DNA of 55,366 bases from Hyphomonas sp. (GTDB lineage Bacteria > Pseudomonadota > Alphaproteobacteria > Caulobacterales > Hyphomonadaceae): contig VMTE01000004.1 in the NCBI GenBank assembly GCA_013791775.1, positions 1-55,366 on the forward strand, given 5' to 3'. The notes below the pieces were generated by a model, which saw only the letters and a program-made list of their open reading frames with translations, was not told the DNA's origin and searched no databases. Shown in pieces: positions 9,271-26,593 of this stretch; position 1 is the first letter of the stretch, and each line of letters begins with the position of its first letter. The translations under genes were made by a program, and so were the position numbers.

Positions 9271-9381
9271 ATGGAGATCCAGCTGCTGCGAGGGGTTGAG
9301 GTCTTGTCATGCTCTCGCGAGCTGGAATCTAAACGCTTCGCAGGCGTGCCGCCGATATCGGCTGGGCGCCGTTGCGAAGAA

Positions 9382-9415: not shown

Positions 9416-9484
9416 GTCTGAAAAGTCTTCTTTGTACGATGTATTTTTGGGGTCGCTGTCTACCGATTTCAACCGAAGGGCTAC

Positions 9485-10347: not shown

Positions 10348-11118
10348 ATGACCATGCCAAAGCCCGTCGATCCGGTCCCCGCGGCAACCATGCTCCTACT
10401 TCGCGACGCGCCGGAGTTTCAGGTCCTGATGGTCAAACGCCATCACCAGATCGATTTTGCCTCCGGCGCGCTGGTATTTCCCGGAGGAAAGCCTTCGGCC
10501 GGGGATGAAGGTCTCGAATGGGCTAATCATTGCAAGGGCTGGAGCACTTTCGACGATACGCAGCGCACTTTGCGGATTGCCGCGATCCGCGAAGCTTACG
10601 AGGAAGCCGGCATCCTGCTAGGCGATTATCGTGACGGTCGCGCGTTCGAGGATACCTGTGATCTTGAAAGCCGCAAAGCGGTGGAGCGAGGCGAGTGCGA
10701 ATTTCTTGACGTCGTTCGCGAGGCCGGTGTGCACCTACGCCTCGATCGGCTAAGCAATTTCGCAAGGTGGATAACGCCCACCTTCATGCACAAGCGCTTC
10801 GACACACATTTCTTCGTTGTTCGCGCGCCCGAACGCCAGATTGCCGCATGCGATGGATACGAAACCGTCGATGCGGAATGGCTTTCGCCGCACAAGGCGT
10901 TGGAAATGGAAGCCAGCGGCGAGCGAACCATTATATTTCCTACGCGCTTGAATCTGCAACTGCTGGCCAAAGCCGCAAGCGCAGCGGATTGCGTGGCGCA
11001 GGCTGAAGCCCGCGATATCGTAACGGTTCTGCCTGAAATCATTCAGCGAGACGGGAAGAATGTCCTCACTATTCCCGAAGACGCGGGTTACGGCCCCGCC
11101 TCCGAAATTGTGGGCTGA
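10348..11118 (+). CDS. NUDIX hydrolase (NUDT19/CoA-diphosphatase-like)
   Basis: A 256-residue NUDIX protein. The box is split: the glycine part is FPGG (44-47) and the catalytic helix REAYEEAGI is at 81-89, so the spacing between them is longer than usual, as in NUDT19-type acyl-CoA diphosphatases. The enzyme would hydrolyse a nucleoside diphosphate derivative, most plausibly CoA or acyl-CoA. GGAGA upstream supports the ATG at 10348. It is convergent with the acyl-CoA dehydrogenase operon, so a link to CoA-ester turnover is plausible but not shown. Confidence 0.8.
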   Translation: MTMPKPVDPVPAATMLLLRDAPEFQVLMVKRHHQIDFASGALVFPGGKPSAGDEGLEWANHCKGWSTFDDTQRTLRIAAIREAYEEAGILLGDYRDGRAFEDTCDLESRKAVERGECEFLDVVREAGVHLRLDRLSNFARWITPTFMHKRFDTHFFVVRAPERQIAACDGYETVDAEWLSPHKALEMEASGERTIIFPTRLNLQLLAKAASAADCVAQAEARDIVTVLPEIIQRDGKNVLTIPEDAGYGPASEIVG

Positions 11119-11151
11119 CGGCAAGCTGCGAGCGGCGAGAAACCTTCGTCG

Positions 11152-12222
11152 TCAGTAACCGGACAATCGCGCAAAACGGTCCTTGAGGTAGCTTGACGAC
11201 CCCCAACTCGCCTCGAGCACGCGAGCACGCTTGAGGTAGAAGCCGACATTGAATTCGTCGGTCATCCCGATGCCGCCATGCAGCTGGATACCCTGGTTGC
11301 TGATAGCGTGCAGCACGCGATTTGCCTCAGCCTTGGCGATGGTCGCTGCACGCGCGACTCCAAAACCGCTGTCGACTGCCTGTAAACCCGCCTCGACCGC
11401 GGAGCGCATCTGCGTGAGGTCGGCGAACAGATCCGCCATGCGATGTTGCAGCGCCTGGAAAGTGGCGAGCACCTGATTGAACTGCACACGCTGCTTCAGA
11501 TAGTCGAGGGTCGTGTCGAACACAGCTTGCGCCATGCCGAGCATTTCGGCAGCGGAAAGCACGCGCGCCCGGTCGAGCACGTCGCCAAGCAGACTGTCGC
11601 CTCCGCCCTCGAGCTTTTCGGCGGCAGCGCCAGCGAATTGGATATCGGCGTGGCTGCGCTGATCGGTGAGCTTGCGCGTGGTCAGTGAAACGCCATCGCC
11701 CTTTTCGACTAGGTATAGGCCGTCTTTGGCTGCGACCACGAAGAGGCTGGCACCATGCGCCTCGTGAACGAATGCCTTCTTGCCGGTCAACTTGCCGCCC
11801 GAAACGCTGGTCTCGATTGCGGAGGTATCGCAATGAGTTCCTTCCTCGACAGCCAGCGTTGCCACGGTTTCGCCGCTGGCGAGCCTGGGAAGCCATTTGG
11901 CCTTCTGCTCGTCGCTTCCGCCGAGCAGGATTGCGCTCGCCGCGATGGTTGTGGCCACCAGCGGACTTGCGGTGAGCGTTTTGCCGAGTTCCTCGACCAC
12001 GAGGCCGGCCGACAAGAAACCGAAATCTGATCCACCATGGGCCTCGGGAATGATGATCCCGGCCCAGCCCATTTCGGCCATCGCGGCATAGGCGTAAGCG
12101 TTGTAGGCCTGCGGTTGGCCTGCTGCGCGGACTTTGCGGAACTCCGCCACCGGGCTTTCCTTAGTCGCCCAGTCGCGCGCCATGTTGCGCAGCATTTCCT
12201 GTTCTTCGCTGAGAACTGCCAT
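11152..12222 (-). CDS. Acyl-CoA dehydrogenase, smaller subunit-type
   Basis: A 356-residue flavoprotein of the acyl-CoA dehydrogenase superfamily, with LSEEQEMLRNMARDW at the N-terminus and GIQLHGGIGMTDEFNVGFYLKRA near the C-terminus, the conserved FAD/dimer region. It would oxidise an acyl-CoA to the 2-enoyl-CoA and pass electrons to ETF. AAGGAC precedes the ATG at 12222. The larger dehydrogenase gene ends 18 bp upstream. Unequal adjacent pairs like this form alpha2beta2 enzymes in steroid side-chain degradation (FadE28-FadE29 type), handling bulky ring-bearing substrates. It is the last gene of the leftward CYP153 operon. Confidence 0.9.
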   Translation of the reverse strand: MAVLSEEQEMLRNMARDWATKESPVAEFRKVRAAGQPQAYNAYAYAAMAEMGWAGIIIPEAHGGSDFGFLSAGLVVEELGKTLTASPLVATTIAASAILLGGSDEQKAKWLPRLASGETVATLAVEEGTHCDTSAIETSVSGGKLTGKKAFVHEAHGASLFVVAAKDGLYLVEKGDGVSLTTRKLTDQRSHADIQFAGAAAEKLEGGGDSLLGDVLDRARVLSAAEMLGMAQAVFDTTLDYLKQRVQFNQVLATFQALQHRMADLFADLTQMRSAVEAGLQAVDSGFGVARAATIAKAEANRVLHAISNQGIQLHGGIGMTDEFNVGFYLKRARVLEASWGSSSYLKDRFARLSGY

Positions 12223-12240
12223 TGTCCTTGCTCCCATCGC

Positions 12241-13452
12241 TTACTGGTGGTCGAGCATGCCAAGCACCCGCTTGGCAATGATGTTGTTCTGGACTTCGGT
12301 CGAACCGCCATAGATCGTCGCTGCCTTGCCGAAGAGCCAGCCGCGCACATCCTCAAGTTCGTCATCGCCAAACTCGTCGCCTTCCCAGCCGAGGCCCTGA
12401 AAGCCGCGGATTTCGATCAGTAACTCGCTGCGGTCCTGGGCCAACTTGGTGCCGACCTTTTTCAGAACCGAACTGATCTCTGAAACGCCGCCTTGCGCTT
12501 TGCTTTCCTCGACCGCACGACGCGCGGTGAGCAGGAAGCTGTTCCAGCGGATCTCAAGATCGGCGATCTTGTCGCGCAGGACCTTGTTGACGAGCGCGCC
12601 ATCACCGCCGGTTTCGCAGTATTTCTTGGCGATATCGCCAAGGCTCTGGCCCATCATGCCGGCGAGGCGCCCTCCGCCCGAAATGTTCGTGCGCTCGTGC
12701 TGAAGCAGGCGCTTCCCGATAGTCCAGCCCTGACCTTCTTTGCCCACGAGATTTTCCTTCGGCACCTTCACATCGGTGAAGAAGGTCTCGCAGAACGGGC
12801 TGGTTCCGCTGATCATTGTGATCGGGCGGACTTCAACGCCTGGTGCGTCCATGTCGATCAGCATGAAGCTGATACCTTTGTGTTTGTCTGACCGGTCGGT
12901 GCGGACGATGGCAAAGCACTTGTCAGCCCACTGGCCACCGCTGGTCCAGGTCTTCTGGCCGTTAACGAGGTAGTGATCGCCTTTGTCGGCAGCGAAGGTC
13001 TGCAGGTTTGCGAGGTCTGATCCGGCATTCGGTTCCGAGTAGCCCTGGCACCAGCGAATTTCGCCACGGCAGATTGGCGGGATATGCTCCAGCTTCTGCC
13101 TTTCGTCGCCGTATTCGAGCAGGGTCGGGCCGAACATCATCACACCCATTCCGCCGATCGGATTGTAGGCGCCGACCTTGGCGAACTCATGCTCGATGAT
13201 CCTGGTCTGGCCTTTGGTCAGTCCGCCCCCGCCATATTCCTTGGGCCAGGTTGGTGTACCCCAACCACGCCCGCCCACGGCTTCTCGCCATTTCTTCTGG
13301 ACAGGGTTCTCGTCGGTCGGACCGTCGAGCCCGGCCAGCATATTGCCCGTGCACCTTAGTTCGTCAGGGAAATTGGTGGCAAGGAATTGCCGCACTTCGG
13401 TGCGAAATGCGTCTTCGCTCGTCTGGTCATCGGATTCTAGTTGTGTTGCCAC
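12241..13452 (-). CDS. Acyl-CoA dehydrogenase, larger subunit-type
   Basis: A 403-residue acyl-CoA dehydrogenase with WCQGYSEPNAGSDLANLQT (substrate and flavin loop), VNGQKTWTSG, and AATIYGGSTEVQNNIIAKRVLG at the C-terminus. It follows the ferredoxin gene by 67 bp and precedes the smaller dehydrogenase by 18 bp. The two probably make one heteromeric enzyme that introduces the alpha-beta double bond into a bulky acyl-CoA made from the product of the P450. Substrate specificity cannot be read from the sequence. Confidence 0.9.
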   Translation of the reverse strand: MATQLESDDQTSEDAFRTEVRQFLATNFPDELRCTGNMLAGLDGPTDENPVQKKWREAVGGRGWGTPTWPKEYGGGGLTKGQTRIIEHEFAKVGAYNPIGGMGVMMFGPTLLEYGDERQKLEHIPPICRGEIRWCQGYSEPNAGSDLANLQTFAADKGDHYLVNGQKTWTSGGQWADKCFAIVRTDRSDKHKGISFMLIDMDAPGVEVRPITMISGTSPFCETFFTDVKVPKENLVGKEGQGWTIGKRLLQHERTNISGGGRLAGMMGQSLGDIAKKYCETGGDGALVNKVLRDKIADLEIRWNSFLLTARRAVEESKAQGGVSEISSVLKKVGTKLAQDRSELLIEIRGFQGLGWEGDEFGDDELEDVRGWLFGKAATIYGGSTEVQNNIIAKRVLGMLDHQ

Positions 13453-13519
13453 GGAAACCTCCGTTCAAAAATCAAATTCGTGGCACCCCTCGCGGCCGAC
13501 AAGGGCGCGCTCTGGCTGG

Positions 13520-13846
13520 TCAATACTGCTGCGCAGGAACGTGCAAAACCAAACCTTCCATCGCAGATTCCATGGGTATCTGGCAGGCGAGGCGACTGTA
13601 TTCGCTGGCCCCTTCTGCAAATTGCAGGAGTTCGGCCTCCGCTTCGCCTTCCTTCAGACGACCAACGATGTCGATCCAGGTTGGGTCGACATGGACATGA
13701 CAGGTCGCACAGGCGCAGGCCCCGCCACAATCGCCGTCGATGCCCGGCACGCCGTTGAAAAGCGCCGCTTCGCGCGCTGTTTCGCCCTCAGCAATTTCGA
13801 CTTCCCGCCGCGTTCCATCGCTGGATACGAACGTCACTTTGACCAT
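13520..13846 (-). CDS. [2Fe-2S] ferredoxin, adrenodoxin/putidaredoxin type
   Basis: A 108-residue ferredoxin. Cluster ligands are C40, C46, C49 and C88 in the CX5CX2C...C pattern of P450-type ferredoxins; C44 is an extra cysteine. It lies 29 bp after the CYP153 gene in the same operon, so its job is almost certainly to deliver electrons to that P450. The usual partner NADH:ferredoxin reductase is not in the window. Three ATG codons are close together (13858, 13849, 13846); GGAG spacing favours the last one, and MVKVTFVSSDG is the normal family N-terminus. Confidence 0.9.
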   Translation of the reverse strand: MVKVTFVSSDGTRREVEIAEGETAREAALFNGVPGIDGDCGGACACATCHVHVDPTWIDIVGRLKEGEAEAELLQFAEGASEYSRLACQIPMESAMEGLVLHVPAQQY

Positions 13847-13875
13847 CATAAACTCCATATTTCTGCCTTAGTAAA

Positions 13876-15138
13876 TCAGCGGGCGTGCAGCCGCACCGGC
13901 AGCTTGGTGATCCCACGCACAAGGGTTGAATACAGGCGCTCGGGTTCGCCGGTCACTTCGACCTTGGCGAATCGCTTGTGAATCTCTTCCCAGATGATCC
14001 GCAACTGCAGTTCTGCCAGCCTGTTGCCCATGCAGCGATGGATGCCATAGCCGAATGACAGGTGATGGCGCGGATTCTTGCGGTCAATGATGAACCGGTC
14101 GGCCTGGTCGATAACCGTTTCGTCGCGGTTGCCCGACAGGAACCACATCACGACCTTGTCGCCCTTCTTGATCTGTTTGCCGCCGATCTCCCAATCCTGA
14201 AGCGCAGTGCGGCGCATGTGAGTCAGCGGCGTTTGCCAGCGGATGATTTCCGGCACCATGCTGGCAATCAACGATGGGTCGTCATTCAGTTTGCGATATT
14301 CGGTGGGGTTCTGATTGAGGGCGAGCACACCGCCGCTGATTGAATTGCGCGTGGTGTCATTGCCGCCCACGATCAGCAGCAGGAGGTTGCCCAGAAATTC
14401 GAGGAAAGGCATATCCTTTGTCGCCGGGGAATGCGCCATTATGGAAATCAGGTCGTTCCTCGGCGGTTCATTGACGCGCTGATCCCACAGGCCCTTGAAA
14501 TACATCGCGCACTCGATGAGCTCTTCGCGCCTCGCTTCGTACGATGCGACGATGCCGGTTTCAGGAGCAGCGGTGGTGACATCGGACCAGCGGGTGAGCT
14601 TGCGGCGTTCTTCCCACGGAAAATCGAACAGGGTGGCAAGGGTCATCGTGGTCAATTCGATCGAGACCTTGTCAACCCAATCAAATTCCTCGCCGATCGG
14701 TAGATCATCGAGAATCTGACACGCTCGTTCACGGATTGTCGGTTCGAGCAACAGCAAGTTGGACGGCGCCACAGCGGGGGTGACGGCCTTGCGTTGCTGG
14801 TCGTGCTTTGGAGGATCCATGGCGATGAACATTTCAAGTTCGAGCGCGCCTTCCACACTATGCATGTCCTGGATGGCGATACCGCCGAGCTTTGCCTCCG
14901 ATGAAAAGACTTTGTGGTTGGTATCGACGGCCATGATGTCGTCGAATTTGGTGATCGACCAGAATGGTCCGACATGGCTTTCACGGCAGTAATGGACTGG
15001 CTCCTCCTTGCGCAGCCGGTCGAAGAACAGGCCGATCGTGTCCTGCTGAAAAAGGCTCGGCCGAGAGACATCGATTTCGTCGATCGGGATGGCCGCTATT
15101 TTTTCGGCAGTATCCAGCTCTATCGTGTCGATGCTCAT
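13876..15138 (-). CDS. Cytochrome P450, CYP153 family hydroxylase
   Basis: A 420-residue soluble bacterial P450. Heme ligand C369 is in FGYGIHRCMG; the I-helix has GGNDTTRN at 258-265; ExxR is E297-R300. The segments FIAMDPPKHDQQRK, APSNLLLLEPTIRERA, MVPEIIRWQTPLTHMRRTA and GDKVVMWFLSGNRDE match my recollection of CYP153, the class that hydroxylates the terminal methyl of alkanes, alkyl side chains and some terpenes. GGAGG precedes ATG 15138. It is first in a leftward operon with ferredoxin and two acyl-CoA dehydrogenases. The proposed role is the entry hydroxylation of a hydrocarbon later processed by the rightward operon. Confidence 0.9.
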   Translation of the reverse strand: MSIDTIELDTAEKIAAIPIDEIDVSRPSLFQQDTIGLFFDRLRKEEPVHYCRESHVGPFWSITKFDDIMAVDTNHKVFSSEAKLGGIAIQDMHSVEGALELEMFIAMDPPKHDQQRKAVTPAVAPSNLLLLEPTIRERACQILDDLPIGEEFDWVDKVSIELTTMTLATLFDFPWEERRKLTRWSDVTTAAPETGIVASYEARREELIECAMYFKGLWDQRVNEPPRNDLISIMAHSPATKDMPFLEFLGNLLLLIVGGNDTTRNSISGGVLALNQNPTEYRKLNDDPSLIASMVPEIIRWQTPLTHMRRTALQDWEIGGKQIKKGDKVVMWFLSGNRDETVIDQADRFIIDRKNPRHHLSFGYGIHRCMGNRLAELQLRIIWEEIHKRFAKVEVTGEPERLYSTLVRGITKLPVRLHAR

Positions 15139-15217
15139 GTCTCGTCCTCCATACCTAGCAAGCAGACTCGCCTCGTTTGCAGATAGGTAGAGAATTTGCA
15201 GGGTGTGGTCAATAAAG

Positions 15218-15301
15218 CTTATAAGGATTGTTTCAAATCCGGTCAAACTGTGAACTTCATAGGCAAGCTATGGACATGTCGTCCGATAAACCCTTATAAG
15301 G
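15218..15301. promoter_or_regulatory. Divergent promoters with paired CTTATAAG palindromes
   Basis: Leftward promoter: TTGACC (15246-15241), 16-bp spacer, TTATAA (15224-15219). Rightward promoter: TGGACA (15271-15276), 17-bp spacer, TTATAA (15294-15299). Both -10 hexamers lie inside a CTTATAAG palindrome (15218-15225 and 15293-15300; the second extends to CCTTATAAGG). The repeats are 75 bp apart. A dimeric regulator, probably the GntR protein encoded immediately rightward, could cover both -10 elements and control the P450 operon and itself together. Confidence 0.65.
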
Positions 15302-15327
15302 CTTTATCAGAGGAGCGATTCTGGGAG

Positions 15328-16068
15328 ATGCAACCGAAGGTCGATGATTCCAGGAAAGCCAAGCGTGCGCTCACGCTTGCGCAAGACATCGTACGAGATA
15401 TCGAAACAAAGGCGCATGTTGCGGGCGACAGGTTGGCGCGCGAGGACGAAATGCTTGCGCGATACGATGTCGCCAGAGCAACCTTGCGTGAAGCGCTCCG
15501 CTTTCTTGAACTCCAGGGCGTTATCCATCTTCAGTTGGGTCGCGGTGGCGGGCCGGTGGTCGCCCGCCCGCAGACCGGTGATTTTGCGAATAATCTTTCT
15601 CTCATCCTGCAATTCATGGAAGCAGACCTCAGAGGCCTGCTCGAACTGCGCGAAGCCATAGCGCCGAATGTTGCAGCCTATGCCGCCCAGCGCGCGACCA
15701 CGGGTGATCTGAGCGCACTTGCCGATTGCCTCAAAGAGCTGGAGCGCAACGAAGTCAGCAGCCAGTTTGAGGAACTGAATCGCCGTTTTCACGATATGCT
15801 CGGCTGGGCCAGCGGCAATCCGCTTTTCGGCCTTCTGACTTCCGCGTTGCACATGCTTACCCGCGAATTTTCGCTCTCGCTGGGGTATTCGGCGCAAGAG
15901 CGTGCGGTGCAGTTGCGCTTCTTGCGCCGCGTCCTTGAAGCTGTGCGCAAGGGCGATGCCGAAGGAGCGCGGCAGGCGATGGCTCGTCTCGTGGCGGGCT
16001 CCGCCTCCTATCTCGCAGAAAGAAGCCCTGAGCTTGTGTCCCAGAAGGTCAAGTGGGGGCAGACGTAA
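15328..16068 (+). CDS. GntR-family transcriptional regulator (FCD type)
   Basis: A 246-residue regulator with a winged helix at the N-terminus (LAREDEMLARYDVARATLREALRFLELQGVI and the wing LQLGRGGGPVVARP) and a helical FCD effector domain (LLELREAIAPNVAAYAA, RFHDMLGWASGNPLF). The ATG at 15328 was chosen over an upstream in-frame ATG at 15196 because the predicted rightward promoter lies between them. It is first in the rightward catabolic operon and divergent from CYP153. Acyl-CoA or an acid intermediate is a likely effector, by analogy with FadR-type proteins. Confidence 0.88.
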   Translation: MQPKVDDSRKAKRALTLAQDIVRDIETKAHVAGDRLAREDEMLARYDVARATLREALRFLELQGVIHLQLGRGGGPVVARPQTGDFANNLSLILQFMEADLRGLLELREAIAPNVAAYAAQRATTGDLSALADCLKELERNEVSSQFEELNRRFHDMLGWASGNPLFGLLTSALHMLTREFSLSLGYSAQERAVQLRFLRRVLEAVRKGDAEGARQAMARLVAGSASYLAERSPELVSQKVKWGQT

Positions 16069-16112
16069 AAAACAGGCGCCCGTGGATGGCGCAATTTGGA
16101 GAAGTTAACACG

Positions 16113-17255
16113 ATGGCACTCAAGAGCCACATTTGCGAAATTCTCGGGATCGAGTACCCGATCCTTCTGGCCGGGATGGGCGGGGCCAGTGTCCCCGCGC
16201 TTGCGGCTGCAGTATCGAATGCCGGGGGGCTTGGCGTTCTTGGCGCTGCGGCCTGCTCGCCGGACCAGTTGCGTAGCTGGATCCGCCAGACCCGCGAGCT
16301 GACCGATAAACCGTTTGGGGTCGATACCCTTCTGCCTGCCTCCGTCAGGCGCGGTTCGGCCCCGCAAAGTGGCGCCGTGGCCGAAAACCCGATGGCATTG
16401 CTCGGCGAATACCAGCAGTTCACCCGCGATTTCATGGAACGCGAGGATCTGCCCGAGGTGGATGCCGCAATGGCCATGCGCGCGGCTGGCGCTCCTGAAA
16501 TGGGCAAGGGCGGGCCGCAGTTGTTCTCGCGGGAGTTTTTCGAGGCGCAGATGGAAGTTGTAATCGAGGAAAAGGTGCCAGTCTATGCCGCCGGCCTCGG
16601 CAATCCCGGACCGTGGATGGACCGCCTTCATTCGAATGGCACCAAGGTCATGGCGGTGATCGGCAAGGTCAAACATGCCCAACAGGTGGTCGATTCCGGT
16701 ATCGACATGATTGTTGCGCAAGGTCACGATGGCGGCGGACACAACTCCCCGATCGGAACCTTCTCGCTGATTCCGCAAGTGGTCGATGCGGTGGGGGACC
16801 GGGTTCCGGTGATCGGAGCGGGTGGAATCTCCGATGGCCGCGGAGTCGCCGCAGCGATGATGCTGGGCGCTCTGGGCGCGTGGGTCGGCACGGCGTTTCT
16901 GGCAACCGATGAAGCAGGTATCGAACGGTTCCAGAAGGAAGCAATAACCGACGGCGGCGATGCAGATACCATCGTCAGCCGCTCGTTGACCGGCAAGCCC
17001 GCGCGCATGATCCGCAACAAATGGGCCGATGCCTGGGTTGCGGCGGGCAAGGAGCCGCTTCCCATGCCTTACCAGTCGATGATTTCAGGGCCGGTCATGG
17101 CTTCGGGCATCAAGGCTCAGCGCAAGGATATCATGCCCGGCTTCGCGGGGCAGGGAATCGGTCTGATCCATTCGATCCGTCCAGCAGCAGAGGTCATGCG
17201 CGATCTTGTCGACGGGGCCGAAAGGGCGCTGGCTGATGCCAGATTCTATTCCTGA
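16113..17255 (+). CDS. Flavin-dependent nitronate monooxygenase/enoyl-reductase family protein (NPD, IpdC-like)
   Basis: A 380-residue TIM-barrel FMN protein: YPILLAGMGGASVPALAAAVSNAGGLGVLG at the N-terminus, VAQGHDGGGHNS, and VIGAGGISDGRGVAAAMMLGALGAWVGTAF for the phosphate-binding end. The family includes nitronate monooxygenases, FabK-like enoyl reductases and IpdC from mycobacterial steroid-ring breakdown. In this neighbourhood a role on an unsaturated acyl-CoA is more plausible than on a nitroalkane (inference). GGAGAAG precedes ATG 16113. It is 44 bp after gntR and 24 bp before the thiolase-like gene. Confidence 0.85.
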   Translation: MALKSHICEILGIEYPILLAGMGGASVPALAAAVSNAGGLGVLGAAACSPDQLRSWIRQTRELTDKPFGVDTLLPASVRRGSAPQSGAVAENPMALLGEYQQFTRDFMEREDLPEVDAAMAMRAAGAPEMGKGGPQLFSREFFEAQMEVVIEEKVPVYAAGLGNPGPWMDRLHSNGTKVMAVIGKVKHAQQVVDSGIDMIVAQGHDGGGHNSPIGTFSLIPQVVDAVGDRVPVIGAGGISDGRGVAAAMMLGALGAWVGTAFLATDEAGIERFQKEAITDGGDADTIVSRSLTGKPARMIRNKWADAWVAAGKEPLPMPYQSMISGPVMASGIKAQRKDIMPGFAGQGIGLIHSIRPAAEVMRDLVDGAERALADARFYS

Positions 17256-17279
17256 ACTCCGGCAAGACGGGGACGCGAT

Positions 17280-18470
17280 ATGAACGCTTCACAGACCTTA
17301 TCCTTTGCCGACAAGGCCGCCATAACGGGTGTGGGCGAAACCGTATTCGTGAAGGGCACTGAACGGACTGCAGTGGACATGATGCTGGAAGCCTCGCGCC
17401 GCGCCATCGCGGATGCCGGCCTGAAACCTTCCGATATCGACGGCATGGTGCCGCCGCCGATTTATACGACCTCGGAGGAAATGGCCGCCAATCTCGGCAT
17501 TGATGTGCTGCGTTATGCAGCCACCGTTCACATGGGTGGCGCCAGCCCGACGACGGCGCTGCAGAACGCTGCGATGGCGATTGCCAGCGGGCTTTGCAAT
17601 CACGTGCTGGTTACGCTCGGTTGGAACGGCTATTCCGCCCTCAGGTCCAAGCCGGGTGCCCCGCCCACTCGGGCGATGAACATGAACACGCTGACCAATA
17701 CCATCCAGGGCTATTACATCCCCTATGGTGTGTTCCTGCCGGTGCAGATGTATGCTTGGCTGGCGACCCGCCACTCGAAGCTTTACGGCGTGGGCGCGGA
17801 TGCGATGGCGGCCGTCGCGCTGGCCTGCCGTCGTCACGCGCAGTTGAATCCGCGCGCCTTTACTTATGGGCGCGCACTCGACGCGGAAACCTATCATTCA
17901 GCGCGCTGGATATCCGAGCCCTTCCGCCTTTACGATTGCTGCCTTGAAACCGATGGGGCCTGCGCGGTTGTCATATCGCGAATGGATCGGGCCAGGGATA
18001 TGCCCCATGTGCCCGTCAGCATTGCCGGTGCCGCGGAAGGCCACCCCTATCCCGCCGACGACATCCCGTCGCGGCCCGATCCCTTCAAGATCGGCCTTAG
18101 CTATGCCGCCCCGCGCGCTTTCGATATGGCTGGCGTCAAGCGCGAGGACATGGATTTCCTGCAGATCTACGATTGCTTTACCTATGTCGTCTTGCTGCAA
18201 CTGGAAGCGATGGGGTATTGCGAACCAGGCGGACAGGCCGAATTCGTCACCAATGGCCAGATTGAGCTGGGTGGCCGCTTTCCGATCAACACCCATGGCG
18301 GCTTGCTCAGTGAGGCGCATGTCTGGGGCCTCAACCACGTGGTCGAGGCAGTGCGTCAGCTTCGTCACGACTGCGGCGAGCGCCAGGTGCTGGGAGCCCA
18401 GACCGGCCTCGTGACCGGTTGGGGCGACCTCGGCGACGGCAGCATCGCCATTCTCAGGAGGTTTGCATGA
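17280..18470 (+). CDS. Thiolase-superfamily lipid-transfer protein (Ltp2/SCP-x-like), probable acyl-CoA retro-aldolase subunit
   Basis: A 396-residue thiolase-fold protein of the SCP-x/Ltp branch. Where thiolases carry the nucleophilic cysteine, this one has S89 ([10 protein letters not shown]), so classical thiolysis looks unlikely. Near the C-terminus are [18 protein letters not shown] and [18 protein letters not shown]. Ltp2-type proteins lacking the cysteine pair with DUF35 proteins and cleave beta-hydroxyacyl-CoAs by retro-aldol reaction, yielding a ketone plus acetyl- or propionyl-CoA. The next gene overlaps by four bases and encodes exactly such a DUF35 protein, supporting the aldolase reading. 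A BVMO further downstream could act on the ketone. Confidence 0.8.
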
Positions 18471-18928
18471 GCAGCGAAAGCGATCTGCCCCCCAAAATGC
18501 GGCCTTCCGCGCATATGGTGCCACCCAAGCCGCGACCGCGCCCACAAGACCCGGTTGAGCAGGAATTCTGGAAGAAGTGCCAGGACGGCCATCTCTATTT
18601 CCAGCGCTGCAGCGATTGCGGCAGCTTCCGCCACTTGCCGCGCTATATGTGCGCAAAGTGCGGCTCGCCGGAATTTTCCTGGGAACGCAGCTGCGGTAGG
18701 GGCACGTTGTTTTCCTGGACCGTAACCCACCAGGCCCTCCACCCGGCTTTTGCCGCCGACATCCCCTTCGTGGCTGCGGTGGTTGAATTGGAAGAGGGGG
18801 TGCGCATGGCCACGCGGCTGGTTGGTTGCGATCACGAGCGTCTTGCGCTCGACCTTCCGGTGGTAGTGGAGTTCGAACTGATCGGTGAGGACTTCCGCCT
18901 TCCTGTTTTCCGACTGAGTGAAAGTTAG
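18467..18928 (+). CDS. DUF35 (Zn-ribbon plus OB-fold) partner of the thiolase-like protein
   Basis: A 153-residue protein with a rubredoxin-like zinc ribbon (C48, C51, C62, C65) followed by an OB fold ([33 protein letters not shown]). DUF35 proteins bind thiolase-fold enzymes and help position acyl-CoA. Unlike mycobacterial ChsH2, no MaoC-like hydratase domain is attached, so hydration of the enoyl-CoA must be done by another enzyme. Its ATG overlaps the preceding stop (ATGA), indicating translational coupling and a stoichiometric complex. A longer reading from 18419 is rejected because it would run through the thiolase gene. Confidence 0.88.
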
Positions 18929-18935
18929 AAGCGCC

Positions 18936-20186
18936 ATGGATCTCGAATATGGACCCGATTACGATGTCTTCCGCAAGCAAGTGCGGGCCTTTATCGAAGC
19001 GCACAGCCATCTCGCTCCGCCTTCTTCTGACCGGGCGGCCCGACCTTCGTCCAAGGCGGTCGAATGGCAGAAGCTGTTGATCGAGCATGGGTATACCGCG
19101 CGAACGATCCCGCAGGAGTATGGCGGCTTTGGAGCGGAGCCGGACATTCTCCAATCGCGCATCATCGCAGGGGAATTTGCGCGGGCCAGGGTGTCGGGCG
19201 GGCTTTCCAATCAGGGAATCTCGATGTTCGTGCCGACCCTGCTCGAACTCGGCACCGAGGAACAGAAACTGCGCTGGATCGAACCCACGTTGAAAGGCGA
19301 TGTTGTCTGGTGCCAGGGCTATTCCGAACCCGGCGCCGGGTCGGACCTCGCCAACCTCAAGACCAGAGCTCATATCGAGAACGGCGAATTTGTTGTCAAT
19401 GGCCAGAAGATTTGGACAAGCACCGCCAAGCATGCCGACATGATCTTCTGCTTGGTCAGGACCGAACCTGACGCGCCCAAGCATGGCGGCATTTCCTACC
19501 TGATTTTTTCGATGGACACGCCGGGCATCGAGGTTCGCCCCCTGAAGACAATGACCGGTCACGCGGAATTCAACGAAGTGTTCTTTACTGATGTCCGCGT
19601 TCCGCTGGACCAGATCGTCGGCCAGCGGGGCCAGGGCTGGTTCGTGGCAAACGCGACTCTTGGCCATGAGCGCGGAATGCTGGGCGATCCCGATGCTCTT
19701 GAAAACCGGCTCCAGGCACTGATCGCGCTGATGCAGGAGGAGCATTTGGGGCAGGGTCGCGCGATCGACAATCCGGTACTGCGCGACCGGCTGGTGGCAC
19801 TTCAGGCCGAAGTGGCGGCGATGAAATATAATGGAATGCGGATCCTTTCAAACAGCCTCAGGGGGGAGCCGGGCGGCATGGCGAAACTGATCGTCAAGTT
19901 GCAAAGCTGCGAACTCGCTCATCAGATATCCGCGCTGGCAATCGACGCCATTGGCGAACTGGGCATTCTCTATCACAACAGCCCGCGTGAGCGGGAAGGG
20001 GGGGCGTGGCAATGGAACTATATGTTCCAGCTCGGTCTCATAATCGGCGGCGGCACCGCGCAGATCCAGAAGAACATCATCGCTGAACGTGGCCTAGAAA
20101 TGCCGCGCGAACCGAAGCTGGCGAAGATTTCGGATGCGGCGAAAGCAACCGCAGACATGCCGCGTCACAAACAGGGATCAGCCTAA
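18936..20186 (+). CDS. Acyl-CoA dehydrogenase, larger subunit-type (second pair)
   Basis: A 416-residue acyl-CoA dehydrogenase with QEYGGFGAEPDILQSRII, WCQGYSEPGAGSDLANLKT, VNGQKIWTSTAKHAD and IIGGGTAQIQKNIIAERGLEMPRE. It starts seven bases after the DUF35 stop. Its stop overlaps the start of the next dehydrogenase (TAATG). This is the second unequal dehydrogenase pair of the cluster, so two oxidations on different substrates, or two rounds of chain shortening, are likely. Confidence 0.9.
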   Translation: MDLEYGPDYDVFRKQVRAFIEAHSHLAPPSSDRAARPSSKAVEWQKLLIEHGYTARTIPQEYGGFGAEPDILQSRIIAGEFARARVSGGLSNQGISMFVPTLLELGTEEQKLRWIEPTLKGDVVWCQGYSEPGAGSDLANLKTRAHIENGEFVVNGQKIWTSTAKHADMIFCLVRTEPDAPKHGGISYLIFSMDTPGIEVRPLKTMTGHAEFNEVFFTDVRVPLDQIVGQRGQGWFVANATLGHERGMLGDPDALENRLQALIALMQEEHLGQGRAIDNPVLRDRLVALQAEVAAMKYNGMRILSNSLRGEPGGMAKLIVKLQSCELAHQISALAIDAIGELGILYHNSPREREGGAWQWNYMFQLGLIIGGGTAQIQKNIIAERGLEMPREPKLAKISDAAKATADMPRHKQGSA

Positions 20187-21277
20187 TGGATTTCGGACTT
20201 TCTAAGGACCAGCAGATGCTGCGCGATGCGGTTGCGCGGTGTCTTGCGGATACCTGCCCGCTCGATCATGTCCGCGAATGTGCCGAGCGTGACAATCCGC
20301 TTAGCGACAAAGTGCTCCGCGCCGTCCAGGACCTGGGAATTCCCGGGATGCTGGTACCGGAAGAGCATGGCGGCCTCGGCATGACGCTTCTCGACGCTGC
20401 CATAGTTGCGGAACAGCTCGCCTATGCGGTCGCGCCAGTACCTTTTCTCGCCAGTCATGTTCTGGCGCCTATCACGCTGAGCGAGGCAGGCAGCGAGGAG
20501 CAAAAGGCTCACTGGCTGCCAAAGATCGCGAGCGGCGAGGCGCGTATCGGTGTCGCGATTTCCGAGACAATCGAGGTGCGCGACGGCGCGGGGGTTTCCT
20601 CTGCTGCCGGGAAGCTCAACGGCACCGCCCTGTTCGCAATCGATTTCGAAGGAGCCGATGCCTTCATCGTCGCCGATTCCGGTGGCAGGCTGCACCTTGT
20701 CGGTGCCAAGGCGTCGGGCCTGAAGGCTATCGCGCTGACGACCATCGATCGGACCCGCTGCGTCGGGGAATTGCGGTTTGATGGGGCCGAAGCGGAACCA
20801 CTGGCTGATGATCGGGGAGCTACAGTGGCCCGGCTGCGCGCTGCGGGGCGTGTGATCCTCGCCGCCGACAGTCTTGGCGCAGGTCAGGCCATGATCGAAA
20901 AGGCTGTCGATTATGCTGGCCAGCGCGAACAATTTGGTCGCCTTATCGGCAGTTTCCAGGCCGTAAAGCACATGTGCGCCGAGATGGCCGCGCGGCATGA
21001 ACCGTGCCGTTCGCTCGTCTGGTACGCCGCCCACGCCTTTGACGCAGTTCCGAAAGAGGCATCGCTCGTCGCCTGCCACGCGAAATCACACACCGGCGAA
21101 GTCCATCGCTTTGTCGCCCGCACTTCCACCGAAGTGCATGGCGGGATGGGATTCACGGATCTGATCGGTCTGCATTACTGGTTCAAACGCATTGGATTCG
21201 ACCGGCAGGTGCTTGGAGGACCCGAAACGGTGCGGGCCGAGGCGGCAGCACTACAAGGCTGGATCAAGGCCGCGTAA
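20186..21277 (+). CDS. Acyl-CoA dehydrogenase, smaller subunit-type (second pair)
   Basis: A 363-residue acyl-CoA dehydrogenase with FGLSKDQQMLRDAVARCLAD, IPGMLVPEEHGGLGMTLLDAAIVAEQLAY, YAGQREQFGRLIGSFQAVKHMCAEMA and STEVHGGMGFTDLIGLHYWFKR. Its ATG shares a base with the previous stop, strongly suggesting coupled synthesis with the larger subunit and a heteromeric enzyme of FadE28-FadE29 style. It is followed by a 57-bp gap and the acyl-CoA ligase. Confidence 0.9.
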   Translation: MDFGLSKDQQMLRDAVARCLADTCPLDHVRECAERDNPLSDKVLRAVQDLGIPGMLVPEEHGGLGMTLLDAAIVAEQLAYAVAPVPFLASHVLAPITLSEAGSEEQKAHWLPKIASGEARIGVAISETIEVRDGAGVSSAAGKLNGTALFAIDFEGADAFIVADSGGRLHLVGAKASGLKAIALTTIDRTRCVGELRFDGAEAEPLADDRGATVARLRAAGRVILAADSLGAGQAMIEKAVDYAGQREQFGRLIGSFQAVKHMCAEMAARHEPCRSLVWYAAHAFDAVPKEASLVACHAKSHTGEVHRFVARTSTEVHGGMGFTDLIGLHYWFKRIGFDRQVLGGPETVRAEAAALQGWIKAA

Positions 21278-21334
21278 CACACTCATTGCGGGGGCCTGCG
21301 AGACTGGCTGCCCCGTCCGGAAGGGAGAAGGAAC

Positions 21335-22948
21335 ATGATCGACTGGAACCTCGGTGACATTCTCGACGCAGTCGAGCCCGCCATGCCTCAGGACGCTCCG
21401 GCGCTGATACACGGCGACCGGATCGTCACTTGGCCCGAAATGTCCGCGCGCTCAAATAATATAGCGCGCGCGTTGCGTCAACGCGGAGCGTGCGATGGTG
21501 CCAAGGTGGCCTTCTACATGCGCAACCGCCCCGAATATGGCGAGCTGATGGCGGCTTGTTTTAAGGGGCGCTTGACCCATGTGAACATAAATTACCGCTA
21601 TCGCGCCGAAGAAGTTTTTTACATTTTTCAAGATTCCGACAGCGAAGTGATAGTTTACAGTTCGGAGTTTCGCGAATGTATCGTCGAACTCAAGGATAGG
21701 CTCGAGAAGGTTCACACTTTCGTCGAAATTGGCGACTCTTCCGAAATCGCGTCTTTTGCGAGTCCCTATGAGACGCTGGCGGAAAAAGGGGACGGATCGG
21801 CGCTCGGCATCAAACGCTCACCCGACGATTTGCTCTTCATCTATACCGGCGGCACGACGGGGATGCCGAAAGGCGTGATGTGGCGGCACGACGACATGCG
21901 CAAGGCCCAGCTGGACGCGCAGAAGTTACTGGGCCCGGTTCCGCAGACGCTGGAAGAAAATGTTGCGCTGATCGAGAAAGAGGGCCCCGGCAGGCGCACT
22001 CTCTCCGCCTGCCCGCTCATGCACGGGACGGGCTTCATCACCGCGATAGGTGCGCTCATGTCGGGCGGTGCGATCGTCACGCTGACGGCCCCTTCCTTCG
22101 AAGCTTCAGAATTGTGGGAAACGGTTGAAAAGCACCAGGTAGAAAGCATCGCAATTGTGGGCGACGCCTTTGCTAAGCCAATGCTTCGCGCGCTCGAAGA
22201 AAACCCGGGCCGCTGGGATACCAGGAGCCTCGTCTCCATCATCTCGTCCGGCGTGATGTGGAGCAAGGAGATTAAGGCCGGTCTATGTAAGCACATTCCC
22301 CAGATCGTGCTGATGGATAGTTTCGGCGCCTCCGAAGGGCTCGGCTTCGGCCTCTCCGTCACGACTGCTCAGGGCGGTACGAACACCGCGAAATTCGGGA
22401 TTGGCGAATTCTGCGATGTCTTCGACGAAAACGATCAGAAAGTCGAACCAGGAAGCGGCGTGCCTGGCTTTATCGCCCGCAAGGGGGCCATCCCCTTGGG
22501 TTATTACAAAGATCCCGAAAAATCCGCCAAGACATTTCGAACAATCGATGGCGTGCGTTATTCGATTCCGGGCGACTGGTGCCACGTAGAGGCAGATGGT
22601 AGCCTTACACTGCTAGGCCGCGGCAGCGTATGCATCAACACTGCTGGCGAGAAGGTATACCCAGAAGAAGTCGAGGAAGTGCTCAAGACCCATCCCGCCA
22701 TCGGTGAAGCGCTGGTCGTAGGTGTAACGGACGAAAAATGGGGCCAGGCCGTCACGGCCGTCGTCCACCTCAACCACGGCGTCCCGTTCGACGAGCAAGC
22801 TGTCAAGGACCATGTGCGCGATCAGCTGGCAGGATACAAAACGCCCAAGGCCATACATCCAACGGAAAAACCCCTGCGTGCATCCAACGGCAAGGCCGAC
22901 TACGCAACGGCGAAAGCAATCGCCGAACGTTTGACGGTCGCATCGTGA
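21335..22948 (+). CDS. Acyl-CoA ligase (AMP-forming, FadD17/FadD19-like)
   Basis: A 537-residue adenylating enzyme. The phosphate loop is YTGGTTGMPKG (170-180), other core motifs are FGASEGLGFG, DWCHVEADGSLTLLGRGS and GEKVYPEEVEEVL, and the catalytic lysine is K520 in ASNGKADY. YTGGTTGMPKGVMWR is typical of ligases that activate bulky carboxylic acids such as steroid side-chain acids. It would convert the acid formed after P450 hydroxylation and oxidation into its CoA thioester. GAAGGA precedes the ATG; its TGA overlaps the GTG of the BVMO gene. It is intact, unlike the acyl-CoA ligase fragment at 0.9-1.5 kb. Confidence 0.9.
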   Translation: MIDWNLGDILDAVEPAMPQDAPALIHGDRIVTWPEMSARSNNIARALRQRGACDGAKVAFYMRNRPEYGELMAACFKGRLTHVNINYRYRAEEVFYIFQDSDSEVIVYSSEFRECIVELKDRLEKVHTFVEIGDSSEIASFASPYETLAEKGDGSALGIKRSPDDLLFIYTGGTTGMPKGVMWRHDDMRKAQLDAQKLLGPVPQTLEENVALIEKEGPGRRTLSACPLMHGTGFITAIGALMSGGAIVTLTAPSFEASELWETVEKHQVESIAIVGDAFAKPMLRALEENPGRWDTRSLVSIISSGVMWSKEIKAGLCKHIPQIVLMDSFGASEGLGFGLSVTTAQGGTNTAKFGIGEFCDVFDENDQKVEPGSGVPGFIARKGAIPLGYYKDPEKSAKTFRTIDGVRYSIPGDWCHVEADGSLTLLGRGSVCINTAGEKVYPEEVEEVLKTHPAIGEALVVGVTDEKWGQAVTAVVHLNHGVPFDEQAVKDHVRDQLAGYKTPKAIHPTEKPLRASNGKADYATAKAIAERLTVAS

Positions 22949-24582
22949 GTCATCGGGAGTCTCCCGATTACGACGCTGTAATCGTCGGTGCCGGCTTCAG
23001 CGGGATATACCTGCTCCACAAGTTGCGTGACGCTGGGTTCAACGTGTTGCTGGTGGATGCTGCGGCCCAGCCCGGCGGCATCTGGTACTGGAATTGCTAT
23101 CCAGGCGCACGAGTGGATTCACAGGTTCCGCTTTACGAGTTCTCGATACCTGAAGTGTGGAAATCATGGGCCTGGAGCGAGCGATTTCCCGGTTGGGAAG
23201 AGCTCAGAGCGTATTTCCGGCATGTTTGCGATACGCTAGACCTGTGGCCCATGATGCGCATGGGGTGTGGGGTCAGAGGCGCGCACTATGAGAAGGAGAC
23301 GAAGCAATGGCGTCTGCAACTCGACAGCGACAAAACTGTTTCGACACGATTCCTGTTGCCCGCTCTTGGTTTCGCATCCAAGCCGTATGTCCCCAATTTT
23401 CCCGGCCTTGAGGATTTCGAAGGCCAATGGTTTCACACAGCGCGCTGGCCGCAGCAGGGTGTCGATCTCAGCGGACGTAAGGTTGCCCTGATCGGCACCG
23501 GTGCAAGTGGTGTGCAGGTCGCGCAAGAAGCGGCCAAATCCGTATCGAAGCTGACCCTCTTTCAAAGAACTCCCATCCTGGCGCTGCCTATGCAGCAGAA
23601 GAAGCTTTCAGAAGAAGACCAGGAACGGGACAAGAAGGGCTATGACGCTATCTTCGAAACGCGCAAGCAGACGAGCGGAGGGTTCGAATGCCAATCGCTA
23701 GACGTATCGGCGCTCGAAGTTGACGAAAACGTGCGCACAGCGCACTTTGAAGATCTGTGGCAACAGGGTGGCCTCGGGTTCTGGTATCACAATTTCGCCG
23801 ACCTGCTTATCAATCGCGAAGCTAACCGCTACGCGTATGATTTCTGGCGCGACAAGGTTCGCGCGAGGATCGCCGATCCCGTTCTGGCCGAGAAACTTGC
23901 CCCATCCGAGCCACCGCATCCGTTCGGCACGAAGCGACCTTCGCTCGAGCAGGGATACTACGAGATTTTCGCTCAGGAGAATGTCGCGCTGGTTGATCTC
24001 AAGGCAACTCCGATCATCCGGGTCAAGCCGCACGCGATTGAGACCGGTAACGGCGAGATGGAATGCGACCTCATCGTTTTCGCCACCGGCTTCGATGCTG
24101 GGCGCGGCGGGCTGATCGATATGAACATCACGGGGACGAACAGCCTATTACTGTCCCATGCGTGGGAAGACAGAGTACGCGCCTATCTGGGAATGGCGGT
24201 ATCTGGCTTTCCCAATATGCTGTTCGCATACGGGCCACTCAGCCCGTCGGGTTTCTCAAACGGCCCGACCAGCGCAGAGATACAGGGTGACTGGATCTGC
24301 GACTTTCTGGTCTGGATGCGGGAAAATGGTGTCGATCTTTTCGAAGCCGATCCGGCAGCTGAAACGGGCTGGACCGAAATGGTTGCCCAAGCAGGCGCGA
24401 TGACACTCTTTCCCGAAGCGGATTCTTGGTACATGGGCGCAAACATCCCGGGCAAGAAGCGTCAACTGATCAATTTTCCAAGCGTGTCTGGCTATGTCGC
24501 ACTCTGCGAAGATGTAGCGAACGAGGGGTATCGCGGCTTCGTGATCGACAAACCCACTAGCAAGGAACACTTCACGAAATGA
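22945..24582 (+). CDS. Type I Baeyer-Villiger monooxygenase (cyclohexanone monooxygenase-like)
   Basis: A 545-residue flavoprotein. FAD-binding GAGFSG is at 15-20, the BVMO fingerprint F158-x-G-x3-H164-x3-W168-P169 is complete, and NADPH-binding GTGASG is at 184-189. GGIWYWNCYPGARVDSQ is the usual following motif. Length and motif spacing match cyclohexanone monooxygenase. It would insert oxygen next to a ketone, giving an ester or lactone, using NADPH and O2. The GTG start overlaps the ligase stop (GTGA). A longer ORF opening at 22738 is rejected because it lies inside the ligase. The next gene is an alpha/beta hydrolase, a typical partner for opening the product. Confidence 0.93.
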   Translation: MSHRESPDYDAVIVGAGFSGIYLLHKLRDAGFNVLLVDAAAQPGGIWYWNCYPGARVDSQVPLYEFSIPEVWKSWAWSERFPGWEELRAYFRHVCDTLDLWPMMRMGCGVRGAHYEKETKQWRLQLDSDKTVSTRFLLPALGFASKPYVPNFPGLEDFEGQWFHTARWPQQGVDLSGRKVALIGTGASGVQVAQEAAKSVSKLTLFQRTPILALPMQQKKLSEEDQERDKKGYDAIFETRKQTSGGFECQSLDVSALEVDENVRTAHFEDLWQQGGLGFWYHNFADLLINREANRYAYDFWRDKVRARIADPVLAEKLAPSEPPHPFGTKRPSLEQGYYEIFAQENVALVDLKATPIIRVKPHAIETGNGEMECDLIVFATGFDAGRGGLIDMNITGTNSLLLSHAWEDRVRAYLGMAVSGFPNMLFAYGPLSPSGFSNGPTSAEIQGDWICDFLVWMRENGVDLFEADPAAETGWTEMVAQAGAMTLFPEADSWYMGANIPGKKRQLINFPSVSGYVALCEDVANEGYRGFVIDKPTSKEHFTK

Positions 24583-25550
24583 ACGTATTGTCCAAGATTG
24601 GAGATTTTCCCGACGACATCGACCCTGTCTGGGCCGGCGATGGTTCGCATCTGCCGGAATGGTTTGTGTCGGCCCTCAAGGTGCCGCGCGAAGAAGGTTA
24701 TGTTGAGATCGACGGTGCCAGGACGCATTACTTCCGCTGGGGCGACCGGAAAAAGCCGAAAGTGCTTATGACACATGGCTTTCTATCCCACGCCCGTTGC
24801 TTTGCCTTCATCGCTCCGTTTCTCGCGGAAGATTACGACGTGGTGGCGTTCGATCTCGCCGGCATGGGCGACACGGAGATGCGCGGGCAAGCCGATCCCG
24901 CGGCAAGGGGGCGCGAGTTTGGTGAGATTGCCGAGGCACTCGATCTGTTTACAGATGGCCACAAACCCACCATCATCGCGCACAGTTTCGGCGCGGGCGC
25001 AGCGCTCACAGCCGTGACCCTGTTGCCCGATGCATTCTCCGGCGTCGTGATTTGCGATCTCATGGTCATGCGAGCCGAGCTCCTGGAGCAATACTGGAAC
25101 CATCGCCGCTCCAGCCCGGGATCAGGTGATCCTGACAAGCCCAACCGGCCCTATGCGAGCTATGAAGAGGCGCGCAAAAGATACGTCCTTTCCCCGCCCC
25201 AGCCGGTCGGCGAGCCGTTCCTCCTAGATTACATGGCGTATCATTCAATGCGGCGCGACGGAGACGGTTGGACATGGAAGTTCTCACCTGAGGTATTCCG
25301 ACGAAGCAATAAGTCCGACGAATGGCTCACAATCGGCCATCGACTCGTGAATGCGCCGGGCCGCAAGATCATCGTTCATGGCGGAAAGAGTCAGCTCTTT
25401 ACCAGGGACTCGGCTGACTACATCCGCGAGCTGGGGGGCGGTGACATTCCGATAATCGCCGTACCTGAGGCGCGCCACCATTTGATGCTCGATCAGCCAT
25501 TAGCTTTTTTAACTGCACTCAGAAGCATTCTCTCCCTTTGGGAGGAATAG
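24579..25550 (+). CDS. Alpha/beta hydrolase, probable esterase or lactonase
   Basis: A 323-residue alpha/beta hydrolase with oxyanion HGF at 66-68, nucleophile S136 in HSFGAG, and catalytic histidine at about 300 in ARHHLMLDQP. No signal peptide is present. Its ATG overlaps the BVMO stop (ATGA), the last link in the coupled ligase-BVMO-hydrolase chain. Hydrolysing the BVMO ester or lactone is the natural assignment; ring hydrolysis of a C-C bond is a weaker alternative. Confidence 0.85.
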   Translation: MNVLSKIGDFPDDIDPVWAGDGSHLPEWFVSALKVPREEGYVEIDGARTHYFRWGDRKKPKVLMTHGFLSHARCFAFIAPFLAEDYDVVAFDLAGMGDTEMRGQADPAARGREFGEIAEALDLFTDGHKPTIIAHSFGAGAALTAVTLLPDAFSGVVICDLMVMRAELLEQYWNHRRSSPGSGDPDKPNRPYASYEEARKRYVLSPPQPVGEPFLLDYMAYHSMRRDGDGWTWKFSPEVFRRSNKSDEWLTIGHRLVNAPGRKIIVHGGKSQLFTRDSADYIRELGGGDIPIIAVPEARHHLMLDQPLAFLTALRSILSLWEE

Positions 25551-25822: not shown

Positions 25823-26197
25823 ATGGATCTGATACTTGGTGCGCCGCGCCGGCGCTGGGCTCGAGGCGAGAAGCTAGCCGCGGTGGCGGCGGCGTTTTCG
25901 CCGGGGATGACGGTCACCGCGGTTGCCCGCGACCTGGGCATCAGTCGCAGCATGCTGTTTGCCAGGCGCAAGAAGTTTCGGGCGGAGACGGGCTTTCCGG
26001 AGATGTCGCACCCGCCGAAGTTTGCGCCTGTGACCGTGACGCCGGATCCTGTCGGATTTGTCGGCGCATCGCCGGCGGCGGTGATGGGCCCGGGGGCGAT
26101 CGAGATATCCTTCACACACGCGCCGCAGATGCGCATCACGGGCGGTGTTGATCCGGTGCTTGCGACCGCGCTCGTAGGAGCGCTTGTCGCGCGATGA
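25823..26197 (+). CDS. tnpA: IS66 accessory protein TnpA (OrfA)
   Basis: A 124-residue protein with a helix-turn-helix (AVAAAFSPGMTVTAVARDLGISRSMLFARRKKFR), the standard first IS66 gene. The frame is intact. Its stop overlaps the tnpB start (ATGA). It is thought to assist transposition by binding DNA. Confidence 0.8.
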   Translation: MDLILGAPRRRWARGEKLAAVAAAFSPGMTVTAVARDLGISRSMLFARRKKFRAETGFPEMSHPPKFAPVTVTPDPVGFVGASPAAVMGPGAIEISFTHAPQMRITGGVDPVLATALVGALVAR

Positions 26198-26542: not shown

Positions 26543-26593
26543 AGGCGCTTTTCTCGATTCTCCGGCGGAGTGAAGCAGGGTAGATTCGTGTGC

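Follow-up and report, generated by a model that had tools for sequence, protein, structure and literature searches.

Alkylcycloalkanes make up a large fraction of petroleum, and among the naphthenic acids cyclohexylacetate serves as a standard compound. Ougham and Trudgill (1982) are said to have proposed that 1-hydroxycyclohexylacetyl-CoA is split into cyclohexanone and acetyl-CoA, after which a Baeyer–Villiger monooxygenase (BVMO) and a lactone hydrolase take over, and we know of no genes assigned to this route or to the cleavage of cyclohexylacetate itself. The degradation pathway of cyclohexylacetate was described in 2015 as largely unknown in one degrader (PMC4547698). Contig VMTE01000004.1 of Hyphomonas sp. 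(55,366 bases, the entire contig, hereafter the window, from a 3.93-Mb genome in 51 contigs) carries at positions 11152–25550 a gene cluster that runs from a CYP153-type cytochrome P450 to a BVMO, and the activity predicted for this operon resembles the cyclohexylacetate route in its acetyl-CoA-releasing cut, its BVMO and its lactone hydrolase.

Steroid hydratase-aldolases of the Ltp2/Sal2 type are similar to the central pair of this operon in that a Cys-less aldolase works with a DUF35 domain on a tertiary hydroxyl, but their DUF35 domain lies inside a MaoC-type hydratase subunit, whereas the operon has a standalone DUF35 protein, an Ltp with His at the Tyr344 place and a BVMO that follows (PMC8399759). 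With the plasmid-borne ipf genes of Rhizorhabdus wittichii MPO218, too, a CoA ligase acts before IpfDE splits off an acyl-CoA in a retro-aldol step, but there a ring dioxygenase installs the hydroxyl, the product is a catechol, and the available text names no BVMO (PMC9195938). Comamonas testosteroni KF-1 degrades 3-(4-sulfophenyl)butyrate by a pathway that has an aryl substrate and an IS1071 frame, with no CYP153, Ltp or DUF35 named for it in the text consulted (PMC3746432). The BVMO of solved structure 6jdk is the nearest structure to the present BVMO, and in the genome G469 an identical protein is encoded together with relatives of CYP153, ferredoxin, NMO and GntR; there, in contrast to the window, the Ltp module is ∼24 kb away with many genes between.

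Gene layout and predicted pathway

Open reading frames (ORFs) with their translations, and Pfam and NCBIfam scans of the window proteins, gave two divergent units. On the minus strand CYP153 (13876–15138; nearest structure CYP153A7, 3rwl, 620 bits) is directly followed downstream by a 2Fe-2S ferredoxin (13520–13858; Pfam Fer2, 41.1 bits for a cut-off of 21), and then by the alpha-like and beta-like acyl-CoA dehydrogenase subunits ACa1 (12241–13452; Pfam N, M and C domains; 283 bits with pimC_large, under the cut-off of 624) and ACb1 (11152–12237; Pfam Acyl-CoA_dh_N and _1). The plus strand carries nine genes: a GntR/FCD transcriptional regulator (15328–16068; Pfam GntR and FCD), an NMO/FabK-family FMN enzyme (16053–17255; Pfam NMO, 240.9 bits), an Ltp-type thiolase-like protein predicted to be a retro-aldolase (17280–18470), its DUF35 zinc-ribbon/OB partner (18467–18928; Pfam OB_ChsH2_C and zf-ChsH2), a second dehydrogenase pair of alpha-like ACa2 (18918–20186; Pfam N, M and C domains) and beta-like ACb2 (20186–21277; Pfam N and C domains), an acyl-CoA ligase (21335–22948; NCBIfam PRK07798, 690.5 bits for a cut-off of 543), a type I BVMO (22945–24582) and an alpha/beta hydrolase (24579–25550; Pfam Abhydrolase_6), predicted to act on a lactone or ester. 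Start codons were chosen by us, namely ATG 15138 for CYP153 (ORF opening at 15246), ATG 15328 for GntR (ORF opening at 15196), ATG 18467 for DUF35 (ORF 18419–18928) and GTG 22945 for BVMO (ORF opening at 22738). All named gene classes are intact, open and in order, which bears out the gene list of a preliminary description of this DNA and extends it by the ferredoxin, the NMO/FabK-type enzyme and the regulator. It also noted the lack of a hydratase and of alcohol/aldehyde dehydrogenases, which is true of this cluster, no hydratase being found in 11152–25550.

In the pathway that we propose, CYP153 with its ferredoxin would hydroxylate the terminal methyl of a hydrocarbon, general enzymes would take the alcohol to the acid, the ligase would form the CoA ester, and a dehydrogenase pair would yield the enoyl-CoA. 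A hydratase, absent from this copy, would then give a beta-hydroxyacyl-CoA with its hydroxyl on a branched tertiary carbon. Because a tertiary carbon is unable to become a keto group, the chain would be cut by Ltp-DUF35 in retro-aldol fashion to acetyl-CoA and a ketone, which the BVMO would convert into a lactone or ester for the hydrolase to open. The leading substrate would be a cycloalkylacetyl-CoA derived from an alkylcycloalkane with an even chain, and the successive products would be cyclohexanone, caprolactone and 6-hydroxyhexanoate. Gene content, conservation, catalytic residues and operator-like sites were computed directly; we infer the order of the steps, the binding of the regulator and the substrate, and we put the probability that the cluster is a self-contained mobile unit with cycloalkylacetyl-CoA as its leading substrate at roughly 0.47. 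Somewhat more tentatively, it may be the first gene set for cycloalkylacetyl-CoA cleavage, plasmid-borne and with its own operator, present in Sphingomonadales and Hyphomonadaceae, with a His-variant Ltp-DUF35 pair feeding a BVMO. The parts belong to known families, and the novelty lies in how they are combined, in the candidate operator and in an Ltp with His at the Tyr344 place; among the matches listed for open-licence papers, no title or abstract opening described the operon.

Conservation and spread of the gene set

When genome contigs were scanned with Ltp, 354 stretches matched and 289 of them encode relatives; the best 80 were kept, all with an Ltp identity of at least 87%. Every one of the nine plus-strand genes was matched in 68 of the 80 loci (blastp, at least 50% identity). 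Because the nine genes recur together so often, the gene set is not a chance assembly. CYP153 was also matched in 63 of the 68 complete loci; the other five are L005 and L061, which are short stretches, and L075, L076 and L079, in which a crotonase occupies the place of CYP153. Ten of the 12 incomplete loci are stretches of <21 kb, and a ferredoxin homologue is present in 63 of the 80 loci. Judged from its counts, the distribution of Ltp is patchy: it was found in 14/150 genomes of the order (E ≤ 1e-100), in 17/385 of the class (E ≤ 1e-90, a looser limit that admits distant forms) and in 12/199 of the family of a Qipengyuania genome (E ≤ 1e-180), the centre genome being counted in each case.

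Eleven plasmid records match Ltp, five of them at 80–90% identity (Croceicoccus naphthovorans, Sphingobium yanoikuyae, S. cloacae, Sphingopyxis fribergensis and Blastomonas), and the unit with CYP153 and ferredoxin was seen on the four Sphingomonadales plasmids inspected, those of C. naphthovorans, S. yanoikuyae, S. cloacae and S. fribergensis. On the S. cloacae plasmid the CYP153 and ferredoxin genes sit between those of BVMO and hydrolase, and the gene facing GntR encodes a crotonase; in L075, L076, L079 and plasmid L104 a crotonase takes the CYP153 position opposite GntR. Comparison of DNA identity along the operon gave opposite profiles for two loci. L044 is c. 75–86% identical to the window upstream of c. 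20000–21000, in the ACa2/ACb2 region, and 92–99% downstream, and L016 is c. 86–94% identical upstream of this region and 76–83% downstream; in each profile a single 500-base bin departs from this pattern. This shift suggests that the two halves of the operon may recombine. Genome G595 has two Ltp copies, at C1:1961521 (97% identical) and C1:755449 (92%). A distant case of the module is found in L114 (genome G243, 7164–12958), where two acyl-CoA dehydrogenases, Ltp, DUF35 and BVMO are consecutive at 41–54% identity. A Coq4-family gene (PF05019) stands between NMO and Ltp in relatives, for example at L019:9201–10001, and members of the family occur in 38 of the 80 loci; in the window the distance from NMO to Ltp is 24 bases, with no Coq4-family gene between.

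Catalytic residues of the Ltp-DUF35 pair and the oxygenases

The nearest structure to Ltp is 6ok1 (240 bits), which we take to be the Ltp2 aldolase of Thermomonospora curvata, with Tyr294 and Tyr344 presumably acting in catalysis. In all 80 loci Gly replaces the thiolase nucleophile Cys, in a register taken from an SCP2-thiolase alignment, the Tyr matching Tyr294 of 6ok1 is kept, and His stands at the place of Tyr344. Because Ltp has no such Cys and keeps Tyr294, a thiolase mechanism is unlikely and a retro-aldol cut is likely, with possible variation at one catalytic residue, the His at the Tyr344 place. DUF35 is encoded alongside Ltp, and its four Cys are kept in 74/74 aligned relatives. Since BVMO and then the hydrolase are in the same operon, the retro-aldol product would be a ketone and not an aldehyde, and the beta carbon would hence be branched. 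The order of chemical steps in the preliminary description is thus supported as far as the invariant Gly and Tyr of Ltp and the presence of BVMO and hydrolase in the conserved unit bear on it.

The other enzymes keep their key residues as well. The heme Cys and the Thr of the I-helix motif GGNDTT are kept in 72/72 aligned relatives of CYP153, for which the ferredoxin is the likely electron donor. In 69 aligned relatives of the BVMO, the fingerprint FxGxxxHxxxWP has its F in 67, H in 69, W in 69 and P in 65, and both the catalytic Arg and the Trp of the second signature are invariant (69/69); the BVMO is 56% identical to 6jdk. The Ser and His of the hydrolase are kept in 68/68 aligned relatives. 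No solved relatives were found for the ligase (E ≤ 1e-60), the hydrolase (E ≤ 1e-15) or ACa2 (E ≤ 1e-45), and those of NMO comprise FabK as well as nitronate monooxygenases. The flavoprotein IpdC likewise resembles FabK (PMC5380842), and an IpdC-like NMO is a possible lead.

A candidate operator between CYP153 and GntR

The palindrome AANNCTTATAAGNNTT occurs twice and perfectly in the gap between CYP153 and GntR, as AAAGCTTATAAGGATT at 15214–15229 and as AACCCTTATAAGGCTT at 15289–15304 (both from alignment, no strand assigned), 75 bp apart. These are the sole matches in the genome at up to 1 mismatch, so a search for a wider regulon at this limit gave no further operator-like site. The reversed pattern, used as a control, gave 6 matches per strand, and two sites are therefore not many by number; their weight lies in their position and their zero mismatches.

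Among 43 distinct intergenic sequences, both best sites scored at least 9/12 in 37 and the best two were spaced 75–76 bp in 31, whereas one plain shuffle per sequence gave no pair with both sites at 9 or above. Exact six-base inverted repeats in the gap gave none that was present in >2 of the 43 sequences. In the window and the loci of its relatives, all 80 sites scoring at least 11/12 fall between 400 bp upstream of GntR and 60 bp into it, a count that does not stand for independent events because the loci share ancestry and some duplicate the window. The crotonase-type loci L075, L076, L079 and L104 have weaker copies in the gap (10 and 8 of 12), and the best sites in more distant loci with GntR (L088, L111–L113 and L127) reach only 7–9. 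We read the palindromes as a putative dedicated operator of the close family, to which GntR would bind, and the catabolic unit would accordingly be placed under its own GntR/FCD regulator.

Evidence for and against a ring substrate

An alicyclic substrate is best supported by the gene neighbourhood in G469. The BVMO of this genome agrees with 6jdk at all 530 residues compared, and we take 6jdk to be the BVMO of Parvibaculum lavamentivorans, that is, the enzyme assayed and the structure named in the title cited below. On contig C14 the BVMO gene (82,151–83,740) is adjoined by CYP153 (75%), ferredoxin, NMO (70%) and GntR (47%), and the distant Ltp module on the same contig consists of Ltp, DUF35 and three dehydrogenase subunits at 53–58 kb, with a zinc alcohol dehydrogenase beside Ltp, a MaoC-type hydratase at 60–61 kb (∼2 kb off) and a crotonase at 68 kb. 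Moreover, at 92–99 kb, within ∼14 kb of the BVMO set, there are cyclohexanecarboxylate genes matching AliA (801 bits, cut-off 792), AliB (553/575), BadI (456/468) and BadH (328/431), only AliA exceeding its cut-off, and near them two additional P450s assigned to the same NCBIfam kind. Odd side chains may be routed via the cyclohexanecarboxylate genes and even ones via the Ltp-BVMO module. A P. lavamentivorans BVMO converts cyclohexanone to caprolactone (PMC9795604, PMC8751089), and a reference in PMC12250605 is titled as a structural basis of oxygen addition to cyclic ketones by the BVMO of this organism.

Several observations weigh against cycloalkylacetyl-CoA and the pathway drawn for it. 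Two Rieske oxygenase alpha-type proteins and a KstD-like protein are encoded on the G469 contig as well, because of which the substrates in G469 may differ, and so are OYE/FadH, LLM enzymes and amidohydrolases; the GntR of G469 has no operator of the palindromic kind (best site 7 of 12). The genes resembling badI were found in 1/16 genomes carrying the operon (hosts) versus 0/20 non-hosts (E limit 1e-60), and in 3/41 hosts versus 1/38 non-hosts (E limit 1e-100), 20 of these 38 being listed as such and 18 assumed from entry numbering. The pooled counts of 4/57 host and 1/58 non-host entries, in which some genomes have possibly been entered twice, give no clear association, and the pairing of BadI with the operon is hence not general. 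As to hydration, the crotonase of the related clusters has no match (E ≤ 1e-50) in the genome of the window or in 11/16 hosts, and was found in G022, G086, G291 and G469. Neither NMO nor the second dehydrogenase pair has an assigned step, the His of Ltp departs from the Tyr of 6ok1, and the full-length loci L017 and L064 are without BVMO or hydrolase inside their 21 kb. Finally, the type strain P. lavamentivorans DS-1 has three BVMO genes and did not grow on cyclohexanone, on C6, C8 and C12 cycloalkanes, on hydroxyacetophenone or on six terpenoids, in a substrate list which, in the portion available, does not include alkylcycloalkanes or cyclohexylacetate (PMC3368416). The alicyclic substrate of the preliminary description is therefore favoured by the G469 neighbourhood and left unproven by the growth negatives of DS-1 and the badI counts.

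Alternative substrates

Acyclic 3-methyl-branched acids (anteiso or isoprenoid, for example derived from phytol or phytane) are a serious rival, though on balance an unlikely one. By the same mechanism, hydration would give a tertiary 3-hydroxy-3-methylacyl-CoA, which Ltp-DUF35 would split into acetyl-CoA and a methyl ketone, and the BVMO would make an acetate ester from which the hydrolase would release a primary alcohol. Each enzyme fits this scheme equally well. The second-best solved relative of the BVMO, 5j7x (500 bits), presumably acts on aliphatic ketones. The ligase is over the PRK07798 cut-off and the G469 crotonase is nearest to EchA19 (317 bits, cut-off 400), both reminiscent of branched side-chain degradation in actinobacteria; some of the host genera are largely marine. 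On the other hand, the cyclohexanecarboxylate genes of G469 lie near the BVMO set, and phytol requires no CYP153, yet CYP153 is retained in nearly all complete loci. Citronellol and geraniol are, moreover, among the compounds on which DS-1 did not grow (PMC3368416).

An aryl substrate is distinctly less probable. Here a 3-arylbutyryl-CoA derived from alkylbenzenes would be converted via an aryl methyl ketone and an aryl acetate to a phenol, as in KF-1, in which the ester hydrolase gene is next to that of the BVMO, the same arrangement as in the window (PMC3746432). Ring-hydroxylating dioxygenase genes several kb off in 2 of the 4 inspected plasmid copies, and the two Rieske proteins on the G469 contig, would suit this scheme, but the nine core genes include no ring dioxygenase. 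Phenylacetone monooxygenase is among the solved relatives of the BVMO, but 6jdk (691 bits) is far closer (428 bits for phenylacetone monooxygenase), and the failure of DS-1 to grow on hydroxyacetophenone also argues against an aryl ketone (PMC3368416).

Slightly less probable again is another terpenoid or bicyclic natural product, such as a sesquiterpene whose ring bears a side chain. The larger cluster of G469, with its OYE/FadH, KstD-like flavoprotein, LLM enzymes and amidohydrolases, is typical of the degradation of complex rings, but these genes are outside the nine-gene core and have no counterpart inside window positions 11152–25550, and none of camphor, menthol, eucalyptol and linalool supported growth of DS-1 (PMC3368416).

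KshA_C, the one marker used for steroid degradation, had no match (E ≤ 0.001) in 16 hosts, G000 and G469 included, or in the genome of the window, and 3 matches in 33 further host entries, a full-length one in G548 (100.6 bits) and two marginal ones; some genomes may stand under two entries, and the strong match in G548 indicates that the search was able to find the family. Because 48 of the 49 host entries thus had no or a marginal match, the steroid or sterol side chain that the preliminary description regarded as the main alternative, with Ltp-DUF35 acting as Ltp2/ChsH2 and the BVMO on a steroid ketone, is weakened to a very improbable reading, even though 6ok1 is the nearest Ltp structure, DUF35 matches ChsH2 domains, the KstD-like protein of G469 scores 640 bits (cut-off 788) and a BVMO of Caenibius tardaugens acts on progesterone (PMC12239570).

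Surroundings of the cluster in the window

A NUDIX hydrolase gene (10348–11118, plus strand; Pfam NUDIX) lies beyond ACb1; each of these two genes has a match in 25 of the 68 complete loci, and the membership of the NUDIX gene in the cluster is uncertain. The surroundings are mobile in character, with an IS91-type transposase at 1–978, parts of IS66 at 26194–28227 and 31719–33329 and an IncP-type TraG at 51832–53808. Two RND efflux sets are present, one at 38787–44549 (adaptor, permease and outer-membrane channel) and the other at 46969–51245.

Significance

Judged by its genes, this compact and widely shared set looks able to take apart hydrocarbons at the point where a chain meets a ring or a branch. 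If cycloalkylacetyl-CoA is indeed the substrate, its cleavage would let bacteria use alkylcycloalkanes with even side chains, and the coupling of a thiolase-fold aldolase to a BVMO would be a way past a branch point at which beta-oxidation is blocked. Being compact and transferable and having a candidate operator, the operon would also be directly testable, and could serve as a marker for oil-degrading alphaproteobacteria.

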